Shown here: positions 10,857 to 48,708 of the stretch, piece by piece | Layout: every line of letters begins with the position of its first letter | Numbering within the stretch: the first letter of the stretch is position 1 | Assembly: GCA_022870745.1 (NCBI GenBank) | Contig: CP085323.1 | Location: 2,604,001 to 2,668,000, forward strand | Length of the DNA: 64,000 nt | Origin: Silvibacterium acidisoli | Lineage (GTDB): Bacteria; Acidobacteriota; Terriglobia; Terriglobales; Acidobacteriaceae | Direction: 5' to 3' | Translations under genes and position numbers: made by a program | The notes under the pieces: model-generated | The model's input: the letters and a program-made list of their open reading frames with translations, nothing else | What the model was told of the DNA's origin: nothing | The model's database searches: none

Positions 10857-13559
10857 TTGCTGGTCCGTACAGGAAAAATCGTCACACTTCTTTCTTCACT
10901 CTTGCTGTCCTCTGTCTGCTGCCTTACTGCGAGGGCCAGTTCCGATCTTCCGGCCGACGTCACCGTCTCATCCGGATGGCAGTTGCAGGCGCAGCCCAAG
11001 GTCACGCAGACCGGCGACGTGCTCTCGAAGGCCGACTACAAGCCCGAAGGCTGGCTCGCCGCGACCGTGCCTGGAACCATCCTGACCAGCCTCGTGAATG
11101 ACGGCGTCTATCCCGAACCGCTCTATGGCGAGAACAATCGTCCCGATCGCATTCCCGAATCGATCGCCCGCACGCCGTACTGGTACCGGACTACCTTCGA
11201 CGTGCCAAAGTCTTACTCGGGCAAGCACATCTGGCTCAACTTCGACGGCATCAACTACACCGCTGAAGTCTGGGTCAACGGAACCAAGCAGGGCATGATC
11301 CACGGAGCCTTCAGCCGCGGTATCTTCGACATCTCTTCGATTGTCAAACCCGGCAAGACAGCAACGCTTGCCGTGCTGGTCACGCCGCAGCCGCATCCCG
11401 GCGTGCCGCACGAGCACACCATCGTGAACGGCATGGGTCTCAACGGCGGCGTCAGCGCAATCGATGGCCCAACGTTCCTCTCGACCATCGGATGGGACTG
11501 GATCCCCGCCATTCGTGATCGCGATTCGGGCATCTGGCAGAAGGTATTTCTTTCTGCGACCGGCCCGGTGCTCGTAAAGAATCCTCTCATCACGACTGAC
11601 CTGCCGCTGCCGAAGACCGACTCGGCCGATGTGACGGTGAAGGCAACGCTGGAAAACGTCTCCGATAAACCTGAAAAAGGGGTGCTCAAAGGCAGCTTTG
11701 GCGGCATCGTCTTTCAAACAGAGGTAGAGGTCGCTCCTCATGCATCGCAGGATGTCGAATTCAACCCGAAGACAATGCCGGTCCTGCACATGATGAACCC
11801 GAAGCTCTGGTGGCCCAACGGATACGGTCCGCAGAACCTCTACACGCTTCACCTCAGTTTCGATCTCAAGAACAAGCCATCCGACGCGCACGATGTCTCC
11901 TTCGGCGTCCGCAAGATCACCTATGCCGTGCCTGACTCCGAGTTCCTGACCATCTCGGTCAACGGCGTCAAAATCTTCATCCGCGGCGGCAACTGGGGCC
12001 TTGATGAAGCGATGAAGCGCATTCCACGCGAACGCCTCGAAGCGCAGGTCCGCATGCACCAGCTCGCCAACATGGACCTCATCCGCAACTGGGTCGGCCA
12101 GAGCACGTCGGAAGACTTTTACGAGATGTGCGACAAGTACGGCATCCTGCTCTGGGACGAATTCTTCCAGCCCAACCCGAGCGACGGCCCGAACCCTGAC
12201 GACCTCGATACCTACATCGCCAACGTGCGTGAAAAGATCCTGCGCTACCGCAACCATCCTGCCATCGCCGTATGGTGCGCCCGCAACGAAGGCTATCCGC
12301 CCAAGGAGATCGATGATCGCCTCCGCGTGTTGATGAAAGAACTCGAGCCCTCACGCCTCTACCAGCCCAGCTCGACCGATGGCCGCGGCGTAAGCTCGCA
12401 CGGCCCATACCACTGGCGCACGCCCCGCGAATACTACAGCTTCGACGAAGCTTTTAAAACGGAAGTCGGCAGCACCTCGATTCCCACCATCGAATCGCTG
12501 CAGGGCATGATGCCGCAGAAGGACTGGGAGAGCATCAACGACGATTGGGCCGAGCATGATCTGGCCAAGGGTGCGCAGGGCGGCGACGTCTACCCGCAGA
12601 TTCTCGCCGATCGCTACGGCAAACTCGCGAACATGGCCGACTTCGTCCGCAAGTCGCAACTCGCAAACTACGAAGCCTTCCGCGCCATGTACGAGGGCCG
12701 CAACGCGAAGCTCTTCAATTCAACCACCGGCGTCATCACGTGGATGAGCAACCCGGCGCAGCCCAGCTTCACCTGGCAGATATACCATCATGACCTGGAA
12801 CCGATGTCGTCGCTCTTCGCAGTGCAGAAGGCCGGTCAGAGCCAGCACATCCAGCTCAACGAGAGCAACGGTAACATCGAAGTCATCAACAATCAGCCGG
12901 TTGAACTGTCAGGCGCGAAAGCGCACGTCGCAATCTATAACCTCGACGGCTCCGTTCAGTACCAGCACGACTATCCGGTGACCGCAGGCCCAAGCAAGGC
13001 GACGGTTCTCGAAAAGCTCGCGCTGCCGCAGACGCTCTCCTCGGTCTACTTCGTAAAGCTCACGCTGCACGATGCATCGGGCAAGCTCTTGTCAGACAAC
13101 TTCTACTGGCAGGCGCAGGCCGCTCACCAGGACGACCTGCGCGACATGAACAAGCTGCCGACTGTCACGCTCGACGCGAAGATCGAACGCCACGATGCTG
13201 ATGGCAAGACTCTTCTCACCGTCACGCTGCACAACCCCACAAACCAGGTCGCGGTCATGGCGCACATCCAGCTTCGCCGCAAGCAGTCGGGAGAACGCGT
13301 GCTGCCGGTCTACTACACCGACAACTACGTTTCACTGGTTCCAAACGAAAGCAAGGAGATTCACATTGAGGCCGCACAGGCGGACCTTAAAGGTGACGCT
13401 CCGCTGGTCGTTGTCGATGGATGGAACATCGGCGTGAACCCGGTGTCAAACGCAGATGGTTCGGTTGCGCTCAACACCAACGCACAGGTCGATCACTATC
13501 CGCAGAACGGAATCTCGATCATTCCGGTCTCGGAGAGCAAGACTTACAAAGATCAATAG
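10857..13559 (+). CDS. Exported glycoside hydrolase family 2 protein (beta-mannosidase / exo-glucosaminidase-like)
   Basis: About 900 residues. A TTG at 10857 has AGGAG six bases upstream and gives a clean Sec signal (KIVTLLSSLLLSSVCCLTARA); an in-frame ATG at 10821 lacks a ribosome site. GH2 sugar-binding, immunoglobulin-like and TIM-barrel domains follow. The acid/base Glu lies in WCARNEGYPP (codon at 12288) and the probable nucleophile Glu in FKTEVGSTSIP (codon at 12462). The layout resembles exo-beta-D-glucosaminidases and endo/exo-beta-mannosidases of GH2. With GH5 and esterase neighbours, beta-mannosidase is favoured. The last 7 bases overlap the convergent fabH-like gene. Confidence 0.8.
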   Translation: MLVRTGKIVTLLSSLLLSSVCCLTARASSDLPADVTVSSGWQLQAQPKVTQTGDVLSKADYKPEGWLAATVPGTILTSLVNDGVYPEPLYGENNRPDRIPESIARTPYWYRTTFDVPKSYSGKHIWLNFDGINYTAEVWVNGTKQGMIHGAFSRGIFDISSIVKPGKTATLAVLVTPQPHPGVPHEHTIVNGMGLNGGVSAIDGPTFLSTIGWDWIPAIRDRDSGIWQKVFLSATGPVLVKNPLITTDLPLPKTDSADVTVKATLENVSDKPEKGVLKGSFGGIVFQTEVEVAPHASQDVEFNPKTMPVLHMMNPKLWWPNGYGPQNLYTLHLSFDLKNKPSDAHDVSFGVRKITYAVPDSEFLTISVNGVKIFIRGGNWGLDEAMKRIPRERLEAQVRMHQLANMDLIRNWVGQSTSEDFYEMCDKYGILLWDEFFQPNPSDGPNPDDLDTYIANVREKILRYRNHPAIAVWCARNEGYPPKEIDDRLRVLMKELEPSRLYQPSSTDGRGVSSHGPYHWRTPREYYSFDEAFKTEVGSTSIPTIESLQGMMPQKDWESINDDWAEHDLAKGAQGGDVYPQILADRYGKLANMADFVRKSQLANYEAFRAMYEGRNAKLFNSTTGVITWMSNPAQPSFTWQIYHHDLEPMSSLFAVQKAGQSQHIQLNESNGNIEVINNQPVELSGAKAHVAIYNLDGSVQYQHDYPVTAGPSKATVLEKLALPQTLSSVYFVKLTLHDASGKLLSDNFYWQAQAAHQDDLRDMNKLPTVTLDAKIERHDADGKTLLTVTLHNPTNQVAVMAHIQLRRKQSGERVLPVYYTDNYVSLVPNESKEIHIEAAQADLKGDAPLVVVDGWNIGVNPVSNADGSVALNTNAQVDHYPQNGISIIPVSESKTYKDQ

Positions 13560-14521
13560 CGCAGCACAGCCCCGGCACTGATCATGCCGGCACCCACCGA
13601 GGTCAGCAGAAGACGCTGGCCTCGTTTTATTTTGCCCGCACGAATCGCATCATCGAGCGCGATCGGAATCGTCGCGGCCGAGCTGTTTCCAAATCGATCC
13701 GCCGTAAACACGGTACGGTCGCGAGCAATGCCAAGCATCTCGCCTGTTTCCTCAATCAGCCGCAGGTTCGCCTGGTGCGGAATCCACCAGTCGACGTTGT
13801 CGATCGACACATCGGCATGTCGCATGGCGCGAACACCGGCATCGGCCATCATGCGGATGGCATGGCGATACAATCCGCGCCCGCGAAGCATCGTGATGCG
13901 ATTGCGCTCTGCAGCCAGGTTCTCCGCCGTCAGCGGTTCGCGGCTGCCGCCCGCCGGAATCATGATCGACTCATACTGCGAACCATCCGAGCCGAGAAAA
14001 AATCCCTCAAGGTTTGACGAAGCATCGGGCACCAGCAATACAGCACCCGCACCATCGCCGAACAGAACGGAAGTGTCACGATCCTCGCCACTCACACGCC
14101 GCGAAAGCAGGTTGGCTCCAATAACAAGCACAGGCTTGCCCATTGCCGCGCCTGTCGTATAAGCCATCACCAGCGCATAGAGAAAGCCCGAGCACGCTCC
14201 CGCCAGGTCGATCGCTCCGGCTTGTTGCAATCCAAGTCGATGCGCCACCAGCGGAGCCGTTGGCGGAAGCAAATGGTCGGGAGTGCTCGTCGCGAGCAGC
14301 AGCAAGCCAATCTCTGTAGGGTCAATAGAAGCGGATGCAACCGCCTGCGCCGCCGCTGCAACCGCAAGGTCAGAGACAGCGGCCTTCGGATCGGCAGTCG
14401 GTCGAAAGTGAATGCCGGTGCGGCGCGCGATCCATCCTTCTTCAAGCGCAAATCGCGCTTCCAGTTCTGCGTTGCCCGTGCCGGAAGATGGCACAGCCGC
14501 ACCTGTCGCGGCGATCCTCAT
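13553..14521 (-). CDS. bioZ: FabH-like 3-ketoacyl-ACP synthase, probable BioZ
   Basis: 322 residues from the ATG at 14521, which overlaps the bioA stop as ATGA. It has the thiolase fold of KAS III with a full catalytic triad: Cys110 in LAGACSGFLYAL, His249 in WWIPHQANL and Asn279 in RFGNSSAAT. It closes a bioB-F-D-A operon, the position held by bioZ in alphaproteobacterial bioBFDAZ operons. There BioZ condenses glutaryl-CoA with malonyl-ACP to start pimeloyl-ACP synthesis. No bioC, bioH, bioW or bioI is nearby. The BioZ role is inferred from context; housekeeping FabH is the alternative. Confidence 0.7.
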   Translation of the reverse strand: MRIAATGAAVPSSGTGNAELEARFALEEGWIARRTGIHFRPTADPKAAVSDLAVAAAAQAVASASIDPTEIGLLLLATSTPDHLLPPTAPLVAHRLGLQQAGAIDLAGACSGFLYALVMAYTTGAAMGKPVLVIGANLLSRRVSGEDRDTSVLFGDGAGAVLLVPDASSNLEGFFLGSDGSQYESIMIPAGGSREPLTAENLAAERNRITMLRGRGLYRHAIRMMADAGVRAMRHADVSIDNVDWWIPHQANLRLIEETGEMLGIARDRTVFTADRFGNSSAATIPIALDDAIRAGKIKRGQRLLLTSVGAGMISAGAVLRY

Positions 14522-15828
14522 GCCACCCATTCGGTCAGCACTTCTTCCATCTTCGCAAATGCCCACGCAACCTGCTCGTCGCTCACGCAGTAAGGCGGCA
14601 TGAAGTACAGCACGTTGCCAAGGGGACGCAGCAGCAGGCCGCGCCGCAGAAACTCCCGCGCAAGCTTCGGGCCGTTCGCATCCAGGTAGCCGCCTCCAGC
14701 CTCTTCCTGCAGGTCGAGAATAAAGACACCGCCGATCGTGCGCGCATCAGCAACACGATCCATCGCGGCAAAGCGAGGCAGTTCGGTCTGGAACTTCGCC
14801 TCGATACGCTTCACGCGATCAAGCGTGCCTTCCCTCGAGAAAAGATCAAGACTGGCAAGCGCAACCGCACAAGCCAGCGGATTCGCCGTAAACGAATGCC
14901 CGTGGAAGAAGGTCTTACGACGATCATCGCTCAGGAAGGCCTCGTAGATCGACCCGGTGCAGGCGGTCACGCCCATCGGCATGTAGCCGGCGGTAAGGCC
15001 CTTCGAAAGACAGATGATATCCGGACTCACACCAGCGTGGTTGCAGGCGAACATCGCACCGGTGCGGCCGAAGCCGGTAAGAACTTCATCGGCAATAAAA
15101 AGAACGCCGTAGCGGTTACATAATTCACGAACCCCGCGCACAAAGCTCGAAGGCCACACGATCATGCCTCCAGCACCCTGCAGCATCGGCTCGATCAGCA
15201 CTCCGGCGATGGTGTCGCCCTGGCTCTTCAGCAGATTCTCCATCGCTTGCAGGCAAAGCAGGCTGCGAGTCTCGGAGTCTTCCGAGAGATCTACTGGCGC
15301 GCGTAAAACAGAAAACAGGAACGGCGAGAAGGGAGCGGTGAACAGCGACGGCGAACTCGCCGACATCGCGCCGACCGTGTCTCCGTGATAAGCATGTTTC
15401 AACGCAATAAACTGCGTGCGTTTCGGCTCGCCCAGGTTGCTCCAGTACTGCAGCGCCATCTTCATGGCGACTTCCACAGCGGTCGATCCATTGTCAGAGT
15501 AGAAGATGCGTTCGAGGCCGTGCGGCAGTACACCGGCGAGGCGTTCTGCCAGTTCCACCGCAGGGCGATGTGTAAACCCTGCAAACATCACATGCTCGAG
15601 CTCATTTGCCTGCTGCGCAAGCGCCTCGTTCAGATACGGATGGCTGTGCCCATGAATGTTCACCCACCACGATGAGACGCCATCCAGGATCTCGCGGCCA
15701 TCCGCGGTGTAGAGCATCGCGCCCTTGGCGCGCACAATGGGCAAAGGCGCAGGCGCGGTCTTCATCTGCGTGTATGGATGCCAAAGGTGGCGATCTGAAA
15801 TCTCCCAGTTCTGTTGTGTCAATCCCAT
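14518..15828 (-). CDS. bioA: Adenosylmethionine-8-amino-7-oxononanoate aminotransferase
   Basis: 436 residues, a class III PLP aminotransferase. Diagnostic parts are LWHPYTQMK near the N-terminus (BioA signature), DGVSSWWVNIHGH, the ALKHAYHGDTVGAMS block, IADEVLTGFGRTG and the PLP lysine in LSKGLTAGYMPMG. It converts KAPA to DAPA with S-adenosylmethionine as amino donor. The ATG lies within the last codons of bioD (10-bp overlap) and the stop overlaps the start of the fabH-like gene, so the operon is translationally coupled. Confidence 0.95.
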   Translation of the reverse strand: MGLTQQNWEISDRHLWHPYTQMKTAPAPLPIVRAKGAMLYTADGREILDGVSSWWVNIHGHSHPYLNEALAQQANELEHVMFAGFTHRPAVELAERLAGVLPHGLERIFYSDNGSTAVEVAMKMALQYWSNLGEPKRTQFIALKHAYHGDTVGAMSASSPSLFTAPFSPFLFSVLRAPVDLSEDSETRSLLCLQAMENLLKSQGDTIAGVLIEPMLQGAGGMIVWPSSFVRGVRELCNRYGVLFIADEVLTGFGRTGAMFACNHAGVSPDIICLSKGLTAGYMPMGVTACTGSIYEAFLSDDRRKTFFHGHSFTANPLACAVALASLDLFSREGTLDRVKRIEAKFQTELPRFAAMDRVADARTIGGVFILDLQEEAGGGYLDANGPKLAREFLRRGLLLRPLGNVLYFMPPYCVSDEQVAWAFAKMEEVLTEWVA

Positions 15829-16493
15829 CTTCCTTCCATCGCTTTCGCCAGTACGCCATCGCGATCCAGTTCACGCTGCGCCCAATGGCGAATCTGTCCT
15901 TCCGTAACCGCCGCCAGATGTGGCATCCGCCCCAGGATCTTCACATTTCCAAACTCAGCAATCGAATCTGCGTTGTCATCGATGCCCTCGCCAGTCAGCA
16001 CCACACCGGCAACGGTGATCGAACGAGCACGCAACGCAGAGACGGTGAGCAGCGTGTGGTTGATCGTTCCCAGACCTGCGCGGCCTACGATGACGACCGG
16101 CAGCGTGAGCGCATCGATCAGGTCGATCATCATTTGTTTGCGATTGAGCGGAACCAGCACGCCACCAGCGCCTTCTACAATCCAGCTCTTGCCGGCAGTA
16201 TTCGCAGGCAAGTATTTCATCACCTGTTCAATGCTGATCTCCGTCCCGGCGAGACGGGCCGCGAGATGCGGAGAAACCGGCACAGGGAGCCGAATGCCGT
16301 TGTCGAACATCTCCCCATCCGTGCAGCCGCCAAGCCCGCGCACGGTTTCCGTATCGTTATCCGGAGGCGCGCCTGTCTGCACCGGCTTCCAATAGCAAAG
16401 CTCATGCGACATGCGATAACGCTGCATCAGCGCCGCCGAAACAGTCGTCTTGCCCACATTTGTATCCGTACCGGTGACAAATACACCCTTCAA
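15819..16493 (-). CDS. bioD: Dethiobiotin synthetase
   Basis: 224 residues, usual size. The P-loop GTDTNVGKTT near the N-terminus, WKPVQTGA (substrate lysine region) and WIVEGAGGVLVPLN are classic BioD motifs. It forms the ureido ring of dethiobiotin from DAPA, CO2 and ATP. Start is TTG at 16493, overlapping the bioF stop as TTGA, another sign of coupled translation in the bio operon. Confidence 0.95.
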   Translation of the reverse strand: MKGVFVTGTDTNVGKTTVSAALMQRYRMSHELCYWKPVQTGAPPDNDTETVRGLGGCTDGEMFDNGIRLPVPVSPHLAARLAGTEISIEQVMKYLPANTAGKSWIVEGAGGVLVPLNRKQMMIDLIDALTLPVVIVGRAGLGTINHTLLTVSALRARSITVAGVVLTGEGIDDNADSIAEFGNVKILGRMPHLAAVTEGQIRHWAQRELDRDGVLAKAMEGRWD

Positions 16494-17650
16494 GCGCCGT
16501 GCTCCTTTACTGCCCGGACCAACGTTTCCGCAAAGCGATCCAGGATTTCATGCGTCAGCTTGGTATTAACCGAGATACGAAGTCTGCTCGTTCCCTCCGG
16601 AACCGTTGGCGGGCGGATCGCTCTCACATCGAACCCCGCACCCTGCAGTGTCGTCGCAACGTTCACAGCGCGCACCGTGCCGCCAAGAATGATAGGAACA
16701 ACTTGCGAACCCGCTTCCTCAACCTCGAAGCCGTTCTGTCTGAGGAGACCGCGCAGGTAGCCCGACAACCGGTGGAGTTCCACAATGCGTTCCGGCTCTT
16801 TCGCGAGAACGTCCAGCGCAGCATCAATCGCCGCGGCAACCGACGGTGGCGGCGCAGTCGAAAAGATGAAGCTGCGTCCGCGCTGCAGCAGGTACTCGAT
16901 AGCCTGCGCAGAGCCGGTGACAAACGCCCCGCTGACTCCAAGCGCCTTCCCGGCGGAATTGATCGAGAGAAAGGTTTTGCTGCACAGGTTCAGCGCTTCC
17001 AGCATGCCGCTGCCTGTCGCCCCATACGCGCCGACAGCATGCGCCTCATCCACGATCAGCGCCGCGCCTGTCGAGTCACACAGCGCTGCGTACTCGGCGA
17101 GCGGAGCAGCATCGCCATCCATGCTGAAGAGTGATTCCGTCACGAGAAACGTCTGCCTGTCTTTGCCGTAGCGATCAAGGCAGCGCCTTACATCTTCTAT
17201 GTCGCAGTGGCGATAGATCACCTTCTTCGCACCGCCCAGCTTCATGCCATCGATCAGGCTGGCATGATTCAGGCGGTCGAAGAGAACAATATCGTCCTCT
17301 TCGAGAAAGGTCGAAAGCACGGCGAGGTTCGCGAGGTATCCGCTGCTGAAGTAGAGCGCGGCCTCTGCGCCTTTGAAGGCGGCGAAGCGGCGTTCAATTT
17401 CGGAAAAGCAGCGGCGCTCTCCGCGCAGCAATCTCGATCCAGTCGCCCCGCAGCCATATTCTTCGATTGCCGCACGCATCCGCTCTTTCACAAGCGGATG
17501 ACTGGCAAGCCCGAGATAATCGTTCGAGGAAAGATCGATGCCTTCCGGCTCGCGCAGGCAGCGAGCGAGGCCCTTGCTCCGAATGGAAGCCAGCCTCGCG
17601 TCGAGCCGTGCGCCGATGCTCTCTGTCTCTTCAGTTCGCGGCATGAGCAC
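16490..17650 (-). CDS. bioF: 8-amino-7-oxononanoate synthase
   Basis: 386 residues, alpha-oxoamine synthase family. Motifs include [43 protein letters not shown] and the PLP lysine in [14 protein letters not shown]. It joins a pimeloyl thioester to alanine to give KAPA. The start is GTG 17650 with GGAA upstream, or ATG 17644; either overlaps the end of bioB. Confidence 0.95.
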
Positions 17651-18605
17651 TGCTTCCGCTGAGCGCGGCGAACAATGCCTGGTCTCCCGAGAGGGAACTA
17701 TTGGAAGCCGTCAGCAGCTTGTCGCCAATAAAGATCGAGTTTGCGCCTGCGAAGAAGGCGAGAATCTGCGCCTCCTGCGAGAGCGTGATGCGCCCGGCAG
17801 AGAGCCTGACGCGCGCCTTCGGCATCATCAGGCGAGCCACGGCGATGGTGCGGATAAGGTGGGGAATCGGCACCTGCGGAGCGTCCTGCAGCGGTGTGCC
17901 CTTCATCGGCATAAGCAGGTTGATCGGCACTGACTCCGGCTGAGGATCGAGCGACGCAAGCTCCGCCAGCATCGCGCAGCGGTCGTCCACGCTCTCACCC
18001 AGTCCGAGAATGCCACCGCTGCACACGGTAAGGCCCGCGGCGCGCGCGGAGTGGATCGTATCCAGGCGGTCATCGTACGTGCGTGTGCTGATGATGTTCG
18101 GATAATGCGTGCGGCTCGTATCGAGGTTGTGGTTGTAGGCGTCGAGTCCGGCTTCCTTCAGCTTCACGGCCTGCTCCGGATTAAGCATGCCCAGCGTTAC
18201 GCACGCCTCCATGCCCAGCGCCTTCACCTCGCGCACCATCTGCAGCACGCGGTCGAAAGGCTCGCCTTCCGGAGCCTGTCTCCACGCTGCGCCCATGCAG
18301 AAGCGCTGCGCACCGGCTTCCTTTGCCCGCTGCGCTGCTTCGCGGACTGTCTCTACAGACACCAGCGGCTCACGCGGCAGCTTGCTGTCGTGGTGCGCGG
18401 ATTGCGAGCAGTAGCCGCAATCCTCCGGGCAGCCACCCGTCTTGATCGAGAGCAGGACACACTTCTGTATCTCCGATTCAGCGTGATACTCGCGATGCAC
18501 GGAGTGTGCTTCATAAAGCAGTTCGAGCAGAGGCTTGTTGTAGTGCTCGAGCGCAAGCAGTGTCAGCTCGGGTGTGGAAGGCGCGGATAAAGTTGTAGGG
18601 CTCAC
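17631..18605 (-). CDS. bioB: Biotin synthase
   Basis: 324 residues, radical SAM protein. The [14 protein letters not shown] block holds the CxxxCxxC cluster ligands; [23 protein letters not shown] and [11 protein letters not shown] are further BioB signatures. It inserts sulfur into dethiobiotin. First gene of the operon, with a GTG start at 18605. The 87-bp gap to the divergent marR-type gene carries a perfect inverted repeat, so transcription is probably controlled there. Confidence 0.95.
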
Positions 18606-18639
18606 GCTGTCATCATCCGCCCATTCGCTGGTTCGTAGA

Positions 18640-18685
18640 AATTTAGTTTAGTGTTTTATTAAATAATTGAGTGCTAAACTAAATT
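18640..18685. promoter_or_regulatory. Perfect 12-bp inverted repeat between bioB and marR-type gene
   Basis: AATTTAGTTTAG (18640-18651) and CTAAACTAAATT (18674-18685) are exact reverse complements separated by 22 bp of AT-rich sequence. The arms are about 34 bp apart centre to centre, close to three helical turns. Each arm also has an internal TTTAGTTTAG-type direct repeat. The right arm ends 7 bases before the marR-type ATG, so a bound protein could block both divergent promoters. Confidence 0.7.
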
Positions 18686-18692
18686 CGTAACC

Positions 18693-19172
18693 ATGCAGAT
18701 CCGTGTAGGCTCGTTCCTCGAACAGAATCCGGTCTTCCAGGTCAGCCGCGTGGCGCGCCGGTCAGAAGCTTTGCTCAACAGCGTCTTCCGGTCGGAGGGA
18801 TTGAGCTTTCTCGAGTCGCTCGTCCTCGCCGCCATCTTCTTCGAGAAGAAGGGGACAGCGCAGCCGTCCTCGCTCGCCGAGGCCTTCCAGATGACACGCG
18901 GCAATATCAGCCACTGCATCTCGTCCCTCGAAGCCAAGGGGCTGGTGCAAAGAAGGATCGATCCCAACGATGCCCGGGCAATCCAGTTGAGCCTGCTGCC
19001 TCTGGGCCGGCGGCGTGCCGCACGCGTCGCCGGAATTCTCGATCGTGTTCAGAAGTATTTTGAAGCGGCAATGGGAGCGGCCCAGCACCGCGCGGCGCTC
19101 GATCATCTACATGCCATCGAAGACATCTGCGGCCGTCTCGCCGACTCCACAGCCCGGCAACGGAGCGGCTGA
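18693..19172 (+). CDS. MarR-family transcriptional regulator, candidate biotin regulator
   Basis: 159 residues. A winged helix lies in residues ~45-105: LSFLESLVLAAIFF, SSLAEAFQMTRGNISHCISSLEAKGLVQRRIDPNDARAIQLSLLPLGRR, the last part being the MarR wing motif. Flanking helices would form the dimer interface. It is divergent from bioB with a perfect inverted repeat directly upstream of its ATG and no ribosome site, so the mRNA may be leaderless. Control of the bio operon is inferred from position; known biotin regulators are BirA, BioR (GntR) and BioQ (TetR), so a MarR type would be uncommon. Confidence 0.8.
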   Translation: MQIRVGSFLEQNPVFQVSRVARRSEALLNSVFRSEGLSFLESLVLAAIFFEKKGTAQPSSLAEAFQMTRGNISHCISSLEAKGLVQRRIDPNDARAIQLSLLPLGRRRAARVAGILDRVQKYFEAAMGAAQHRAALDHLHAIEDICGRLADSTARQRSG

Positions 19173-48598: not shown

Positions 48599-48708
48599 AG
48601 CTGCAACATCCCCGTCGGCTGGGTGGCACTGCCACAGTGAGTCGGCTGCAGCTCTGATTTGCTTTCAACATCCCCGTCCTGAAGCGCCAATGCCCAGGGA
48701 CTGAGAGC
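48599..48708 (+). ncRNA. NAD+-I riboswitch (nadA motif), two tandem domains
   Basis: Domain 1 (48599-48653): AGCTGC pairs with GCAGCT around CAACATCCCCGTCGGCTGGG and a GCCACAGTGAGTCGGC block. Domain 2 (48661-48708): GCTTTC pairs with GAGAGC around CAACATCCCCGTC. The CAACAxCCCCGU core, the two-domain layout and the position before nadA match the NAD+-I class known from Acidobacteriota. The 3' strand of the second P1 stem is followed at once by GGAAGGA, the nadA ribosome site, suggesting translational control: ligand binding would hide the site. Confidence 0.9.

Follow-up and report, generated by a model that had tools for sequence, protein, structure and literature searches.

A BioZ-containing biotin operon in Acidobacteriaceae and its divergent MarR gene, a candidate regulator of biotin synthesis and import

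The stretch of DNA analyzed here (64 kb, referred to as the window) stems from a complete genome of 5.36 Mb and carries bioB, bioF, bioD, bioA, and bioZ as one minus-strand run (18605–13553), in which all five neighboring genes overlap pairwise (with the starts used here) and the stop codon of bioA and the start codon of bioZ share an ATGA. Divergent from bioB and separated from it by 87 bases lies a gene for a MarR-family regulator.

18693..19172, plus strand: MarR-family regulator gene (PF12802, 40.1 bits vs. a cut-off of 27; fold model)
18644..18681, minus strand: predicted MarR operator, 38 bases, with the blocks TAGTTTA / TCAATTATTTA / AAACTA
17631..18605, minus strand: bioB, biotin synthase (TIGR00433, 381.5 bits vs. 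a cut-off of 225)
16490..17650, minus strand: bioF (best family TIGR00858, 398.3 bits, below the cut-off of 426.45; fits the operon order)
15819..16493, minus strand: bioD, dethiobiotin synthase (TIGR00347, 141.6 bits vs. a cut-off of 83.3)
14518..15828, minus strand: bioA, adenosylmethionine–8-amino-7-oxononanoate transaminase (TIGR00508, 574.5 bits vs. a cut-off of 405)
13553..14521, minus strand: bioZ, putative KAS III-type 3-oxopimeloyl-ACP synthase (PF08545 and PF08541, clade, pocket residues)

The gene order, the ATGA coupling, and the divergent MarR gene had been recognized in a first-pass annotation of the sequence and hold with their coordinates, as does the intact Cys-His-Asn triad of the KAS III protein (Cys110, His249, and Asn279 in the 322-residue numbering). 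The span assigned to this protein (13553–14566) corresponds to the longest open reading frame with a GTG at 14566; its start was revised to the ATG at 14521, because this agrees with the homologues and with the ATGA overlap. The interpretation offered at the time, namely a BioZ-type route from glutaryl-CoA outside Proteobacteria together with MarR control of the biotin genes, stands in part.

The KAS III encoded at the end of the operon is very probably BioZ, judging from its sequence relationships. Both KAS III domains are present (PF08545 with 65.9 bits and PF08541 with 98.6 bits), and in a phmmer comparison with solved structures the top three chains scored 265.5, 263.3, and 260.2 bits, as compared to at most 220 bits for FabH-type chains. 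Two of these three bear the name 3-oxopimeloyl-ACP synthase, and we take the top chains to be BioZ of A. tumefaciens, since C115 fits in the alignment. For this enzyme, S84, R147, and S287 have been proposed to neutralize the glutaryl carboxylate (Zhang et al., PMC8024396, as excerpted); S84A and S287A supported growth poorly, and partial activity was left in R147A. Mapped by alignment to the solved chains, their counterparts in the window protein are S79, R142, and S281, which are kept in 14 of 14 aligned BioZ rows, whereas the genome's own FabH has I, I, and T at these positions. In a KAS III tree, all 29 bio-operon rows, including that of the window, fall into one clade (SH-aLRT 99), with the window BioZ in an acidobacterial sub-clade of eight rows (SH-aLRT 97). 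This is a quick tree of 98 of 132 rows with SH-aLRT support only and no bootstrap; 34 near-copies, seven of them bio-operon rows, had been dropped by hand or by length, and the KAS IIIs of named genomes were sampled from among the matches listed, so that the tree may lack named BioZ from other phyla.

One result counts against the assignment to BioZ: the best family of the window protein, NF004623, gave 377.5 bits and thus less than its cut-off of 437. The same model, which bears no BioZ name, gave 388.0, 350.5, and 372.7 bits for the relatives at L082, L087, and L095, and 259.8 bits for the genome's own FabH; its cut-off was passed by two alpha-type BioZ scanned (L118 and L097). Matches with at least 50 % identity to the window BioZ were found in 4 of 247 genomes of the phylum, all four within bio clusters. 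In the family, 17 of 398 genomes had a match at E 1e-70; the twelve with at least 49 % identity all adjoin bioA, and the stretches read around the other five (41–44 % identity) contained no bio gene. Three actinobacterial KAS IIIs (L168, L209, and L199) branch beside the BioZ clade, with no bio genes in the stretches read.

According to the proposed pathway, BioZ would form 3-oxopimeloyl-ACP by condensation of malonyl-ACP with a glutaryl thioester, the enzymes of fatty acid biosynthesis would reduce this product to pimeloyl-ACP, and BioF, BioA, BioD, and BioB would then build biotin from the latter. That no other pimeloyl-ACP genes accompany the operon had been noted before, and this holds genome-wide as to BioC and BioH, neither of which has a match over its cut-off (best scores of 65.1 vs. 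184.95 bits and 72.3 vs. 206.95 bits, respectively). The claim that the route starts from glutaryl-CoA fared less uniformly: the pocket residues make it likely, but the A. tumefaciens-type supply enzyme is without a match. In A. tumefaciens, CaiB is needed for glutaryl-CoA supply, as described in the excerpted text of PMC7645780. The window genome has 0 matches of PF02515 (CaiB-family CoA-transferases) and, over its 5.36 Mb, no match of PF02771 (N-terminal domain of acyl-CoA dehydrogenases), and therefore no known glutaryl-CoA route; a lysine route via CaiB or glutaryl-CoA dehydrogenase was accordingly rejected. A BioZ genome devoid of CaiB turns the source of glutaryl-CoA into a checkable question.

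Two other readings of the KAS III deserve consideration. It might be a housekeeping FabH that adjoins bioA by chance, as its domains and triad are common to FabH; however, a second fabH is located at genome position 2531254, outside the bio-operon clade, and groups with acidobacterial FabH, including those of Paracidobacterium and Edaphobacter, whereas the window protein groups with the bio-operon KAS IIIs. The position of this FabH among named Acidobacteriaceae sequences is also the basis on which the organism is regarded as Acidobacteriaceae-like. Tree position, second fabH, and pocket residues led us to reject this reading, which is hardly conceivable, and both the phylogeny and the search for a separate fabH suggested in the first-pass annotation thus came out on the side of BioZ. 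Alternatively, the enzyme may be BioZ-like yet use another primer, dicarboxylic or else, and provide pimeloyl-ACP without glutaryl-CoA. The missing CaiB-family and acyl-CoA dehydrogenase matches would fit such a scenario, as would the presence of a CaiB-family gene in just 4 of 14 BioZ genomes. On the other hand, all three carboxylate-pocket residues are retained, and an active-site mutant of BioZ made in E. coli carried glutaryl acquired from the cytosol (PMC7645780, as excerpted), so that a dedicated supply enzyme may be dispensable. We regard the use of another primer as unlikely and favor BioZ acting on a glutaryl thioester.

A BioZ route outside Proteobacteria, presented as a novelty in the first-pass annotation, is not new, because bioZ of Rhodothermus marinus and Marinithermus hydrothermalis had been found to complement E. 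coli (Hu and Cronan, PMC7645780, as excerpted); in the excerpts of Zhang et al. (PMC8024396), the route seems confined to Alphaproteobacteria. Like the window BioZ, the Rhodothermus and Marinithermus enzymes lie outside Proteobacteria, but they belong to other phyla and their sequences are not among the tree rows. No description of an acidobacterial BioZ was found in the open-licence literature searched. By itself, the BioZ part is ordinary. The bioBFDAZ operons of Rhizobiales (A. tumefaciens and Mesorhizobium; PMC7645780 and PMC8024396, as excerpted) share with the window the order B-F-D-A-Z, the triad, the pocket residues, and the clade, and the ATGA coupling of bioA and bioZ recurs in one plasmid case (L120). 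In contrast to Rhizobiales, the window BioZ (~48–49 % identical to the three rhizobial BioZ aligned) falls into its own acidobacterial sub-clade and below the NF004623 cut-off, the genome has no CaiB-family match, and a MarR gene is found where Rhizobiales have a GntR gene.

Two BioZ lineages are present in the family, one native-looking, with MarR at several of its operons, and one nested among Alphaproteobacteria. The latter forms part of a second bio-operon sub-clade of 21 rows (SH-aLRT 99) that is alphaproteobacterial but for six Acidobacteriaceae rows (L091, L092, L097, L122, L123, and L124), which nest as one group (SH-aLRT 99) and on their tree position look like the result of a transfer; one carrier, G350, belongs to the window's own genus. 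A GntR/FCD gene is divergent from bioB in three of the five alpha-like operons read upstream (L097, L122, and L123), with 49–51 % identity to the GntR at the bio operon of Phyllobacterium; the stretch read at L092 contained no GntR gene, and L125 neither a GntR gene nor a box. The exact sequence TTATCTATAA, which we take to be the BioR box pattern, precedes bioB in L092 and L097, and near matches were seen by eye in L122 and L123. With native-looking MarR operons next to alpha-like GntR operons, the family therefore appears to hold two control regimes. The loci L088, L089, and L090 contain bioBFDA (L090 read as bioFDA) without bioZ and without this MarR nearby.

The divergent regulator has a MarR winged-helix domain (also PF01047, 33.6 bits vs. 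a cut-off of 24.6), and Foldseek matches of its fold model include MftR and MepR, with the heme sensor PefR and FabT also among the matches. On comparative grounds it is quite probable that this MarR controls the bio operon of the window, and the earlier proposal that a MarR protein acts in place of BirA, BioR, or BioQ gains support in two respects. The arrangement of MarR, operator, and target is conserved, and the single biotin ligase match in the genome comprises the ligase domain only, without the N-terminal DNA-binding domain of class II BirA (alignments to bifunctional BirA models start at position 67–83). The regulators of biotin genes named in the excerpted text of a review are BirA, BioR, and BioQ (PMC11089781). 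BirA, BioQ (TetR), and BioL (MocR) regulate biotin genes as proposed for the MarR, but none of them is a MarR protein. BioR (GntR, Alphaproteobacteria) likewise is a divergent or neighboring regulator whose reach extends to biotin synthesis as well as transport, in Brucella acting before bioR, bioY, and bioB (PMC11089781, as excerpted). It belongs, however, to another protein family, recognizes another DNA site, and targets BioY as transporter instead of a TonB receptor; the operon neighbor in the window, being a MarR and not a GntR protein, falls outside BioR. Neither a MarR-type biotin regulator nor a TonB biotin receptor under a MarR-type regulator was found described in the open-licence literature searched.

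The divergent MarR would bind the predicted 38-base site between marR and bioB and thereby make transcription of the bio operon, and probably also of marR, depend on biotin status, presumably by repression. The site sits within an inverted repeat (18640–18651 / 18674–18685) with perfect 12-base arms, 22 bases apart, which was equaled by none of 500 shuffles and whose 10-base core arms occur a single time in the genome. With a simple palindrome as the operator, the best repeat was equaled by 0, 2, 1, 7, and 8 of 500 shuffles in the window, L082, L083, L084, and L087, respectively, the best repeat of L087 being another element; this form was rejected and a gapped three-block form was used. No sigma-70-type promoter was found in the marR–bioB spacer.

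A profile built from five MarR proteins found matches in 52 of 399 genomes of the class, which together with G321, G373, and G344 form a set of 55 genomes, picked for carrying this MarR. The divergent neighbor of marR is bioB in eight of them (G000, G255, G321, G373, G344, G762, G714, and G860), a TonB-dependent receptor in 46, and neither in one (G422). Four of the receptors were scanned, with barrel and plug over the cut-off in each, and the others were called by similarity to these; no downstream gene is common to all 15 receptor loci listed. An operator matrix trained on 25 spacers, all of the receptor type (28 minus G422 and two near-copies), takes the form TAGTTtA / TCAACTATTTA / AAACTA. 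The window spacer, although held out, scored 40.1 (training range 28.1–41.7); the best unrelated position elsewhere in the 64 kb reached 13.5. Held-out scores were 18.9–30.0 for the seven other bioB-type sites and 14.7–41.4 for 21 receptor-type sites; that the bioB-type operators except the window's lie below most receptor-type scores was counted against the best explanation. G868 (14.7) and G422 (10.7) score at or near background, and the operator at L257 (G422) breaks off behind block one, the receptor's place being taken by a gene that by eye is PadR-like.

Mapped onto the MarR tree, bioB as the target requires five changes, with at least four of them forced by starred branches and gain and loss not distinguishable; 4 of 500 label shuffles were as low (mean 7.6). 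The window's MarR, whose nearest relative by identity is a receptor-type MarR (64 %), sits on a long branch, which again was counted against the best explanation. In G347, a relic of the bioB start (42 residues, 50 % identity to BioB of G762, E ~2e-8) lies between operator and receptor; a shorter bioB trace in G301 was seen by eye only. There is no KAS III after bioA in G762 and G714. In another family, L262 and L263 combine MarR with bioBFDA without a KAS III after bioA. The close operons of G316 and G354 (L085 and L086, on short contigs) have another gene upstream of bioB, and no MarR site was found there, which also was counted against the best explanation. A search for BioF covered 15 of the 46 receptor-type genomes: at E 1e-40, nothing matched in three of them (G007, G061, and G371), which was counted in favor of the best explanation, and in the other twelve the surroundings read of the best BioF-like match lacked bioA, bioB, and bioD, with scattered bio genes possible. 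In three such proteins scanned, a BioF/Kbl model came first; all three passed the glycine C-acetyltransferase cut-off, and two narrowly passed that of bioF. The BioF-like proteins of these twelve genomes, which leave a loss of synthesis there no more than possible, were counted against the best explanation.

The gene identities, the clade and its residues, the conserved arrangement of MarR, operator, and target, and the repeated change of target are established at the level of sequence. As a whole, they are best explained by a BioZ biotin operon under a MarR regulator of biotin supply that would act on synthesis or import, a reading we consider likely. The MarR looks like a new biotin-supply switch because in relatives it and its DNA site precede a nutrient-import gene; in most MarR-bearing relatives, the operator would precede a TonB-dependent importer of biotin or a close precursor, and import of such a compound by the receptor is reasonably plausible. 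Conceivably, with the balance tipping slightly in its favor, this amounts to a new class of MarR-type biotin regulators in Acidobacteriaceae with an operator of its own, which runs bioBFDA(Z) or, in genomes that have lost this operon, a dedicated TonB-dependent biotin receptor of the outer membrane, with targets swapped at least four times.

It is also possible, though rather doubtful, that the signal sensed by the MarR is a different one, be it heme or iron, cobalamin, an acyl thioester, or some toxic compound, that the receptor imports this compound, and that the bio operon has become a target on other grounds. The receptor profiles point in this direction insofar as B12 and heme receptors match best, albeit all below the cut-off, and the MarR fold is common to many ligand types, with PefR and FabT among the matches. 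Such a signal would, however, leave unexplained why the whole bio operon and the receptor alternate behind one operator, with at least four forced changes, and why a bioB relic lies at precisely this spot in G347. Moreover, 17 loci, 16 of them of the receptor type, gave no Rfam match and so contain no cobalamin riboswitch, and a riboswitch before the receptor was rejected. If biotin supply is indeed what the MarR governs, a common soil family would harbor a testable make-or-import switch for biotin, and a candidate outer-membrane biotin receptor would be named. Elsewhere in the window, a nadA riboswitch was detected on the plus strand (48599–48653, 59.9 bits vs. a gathering score of 37.5).
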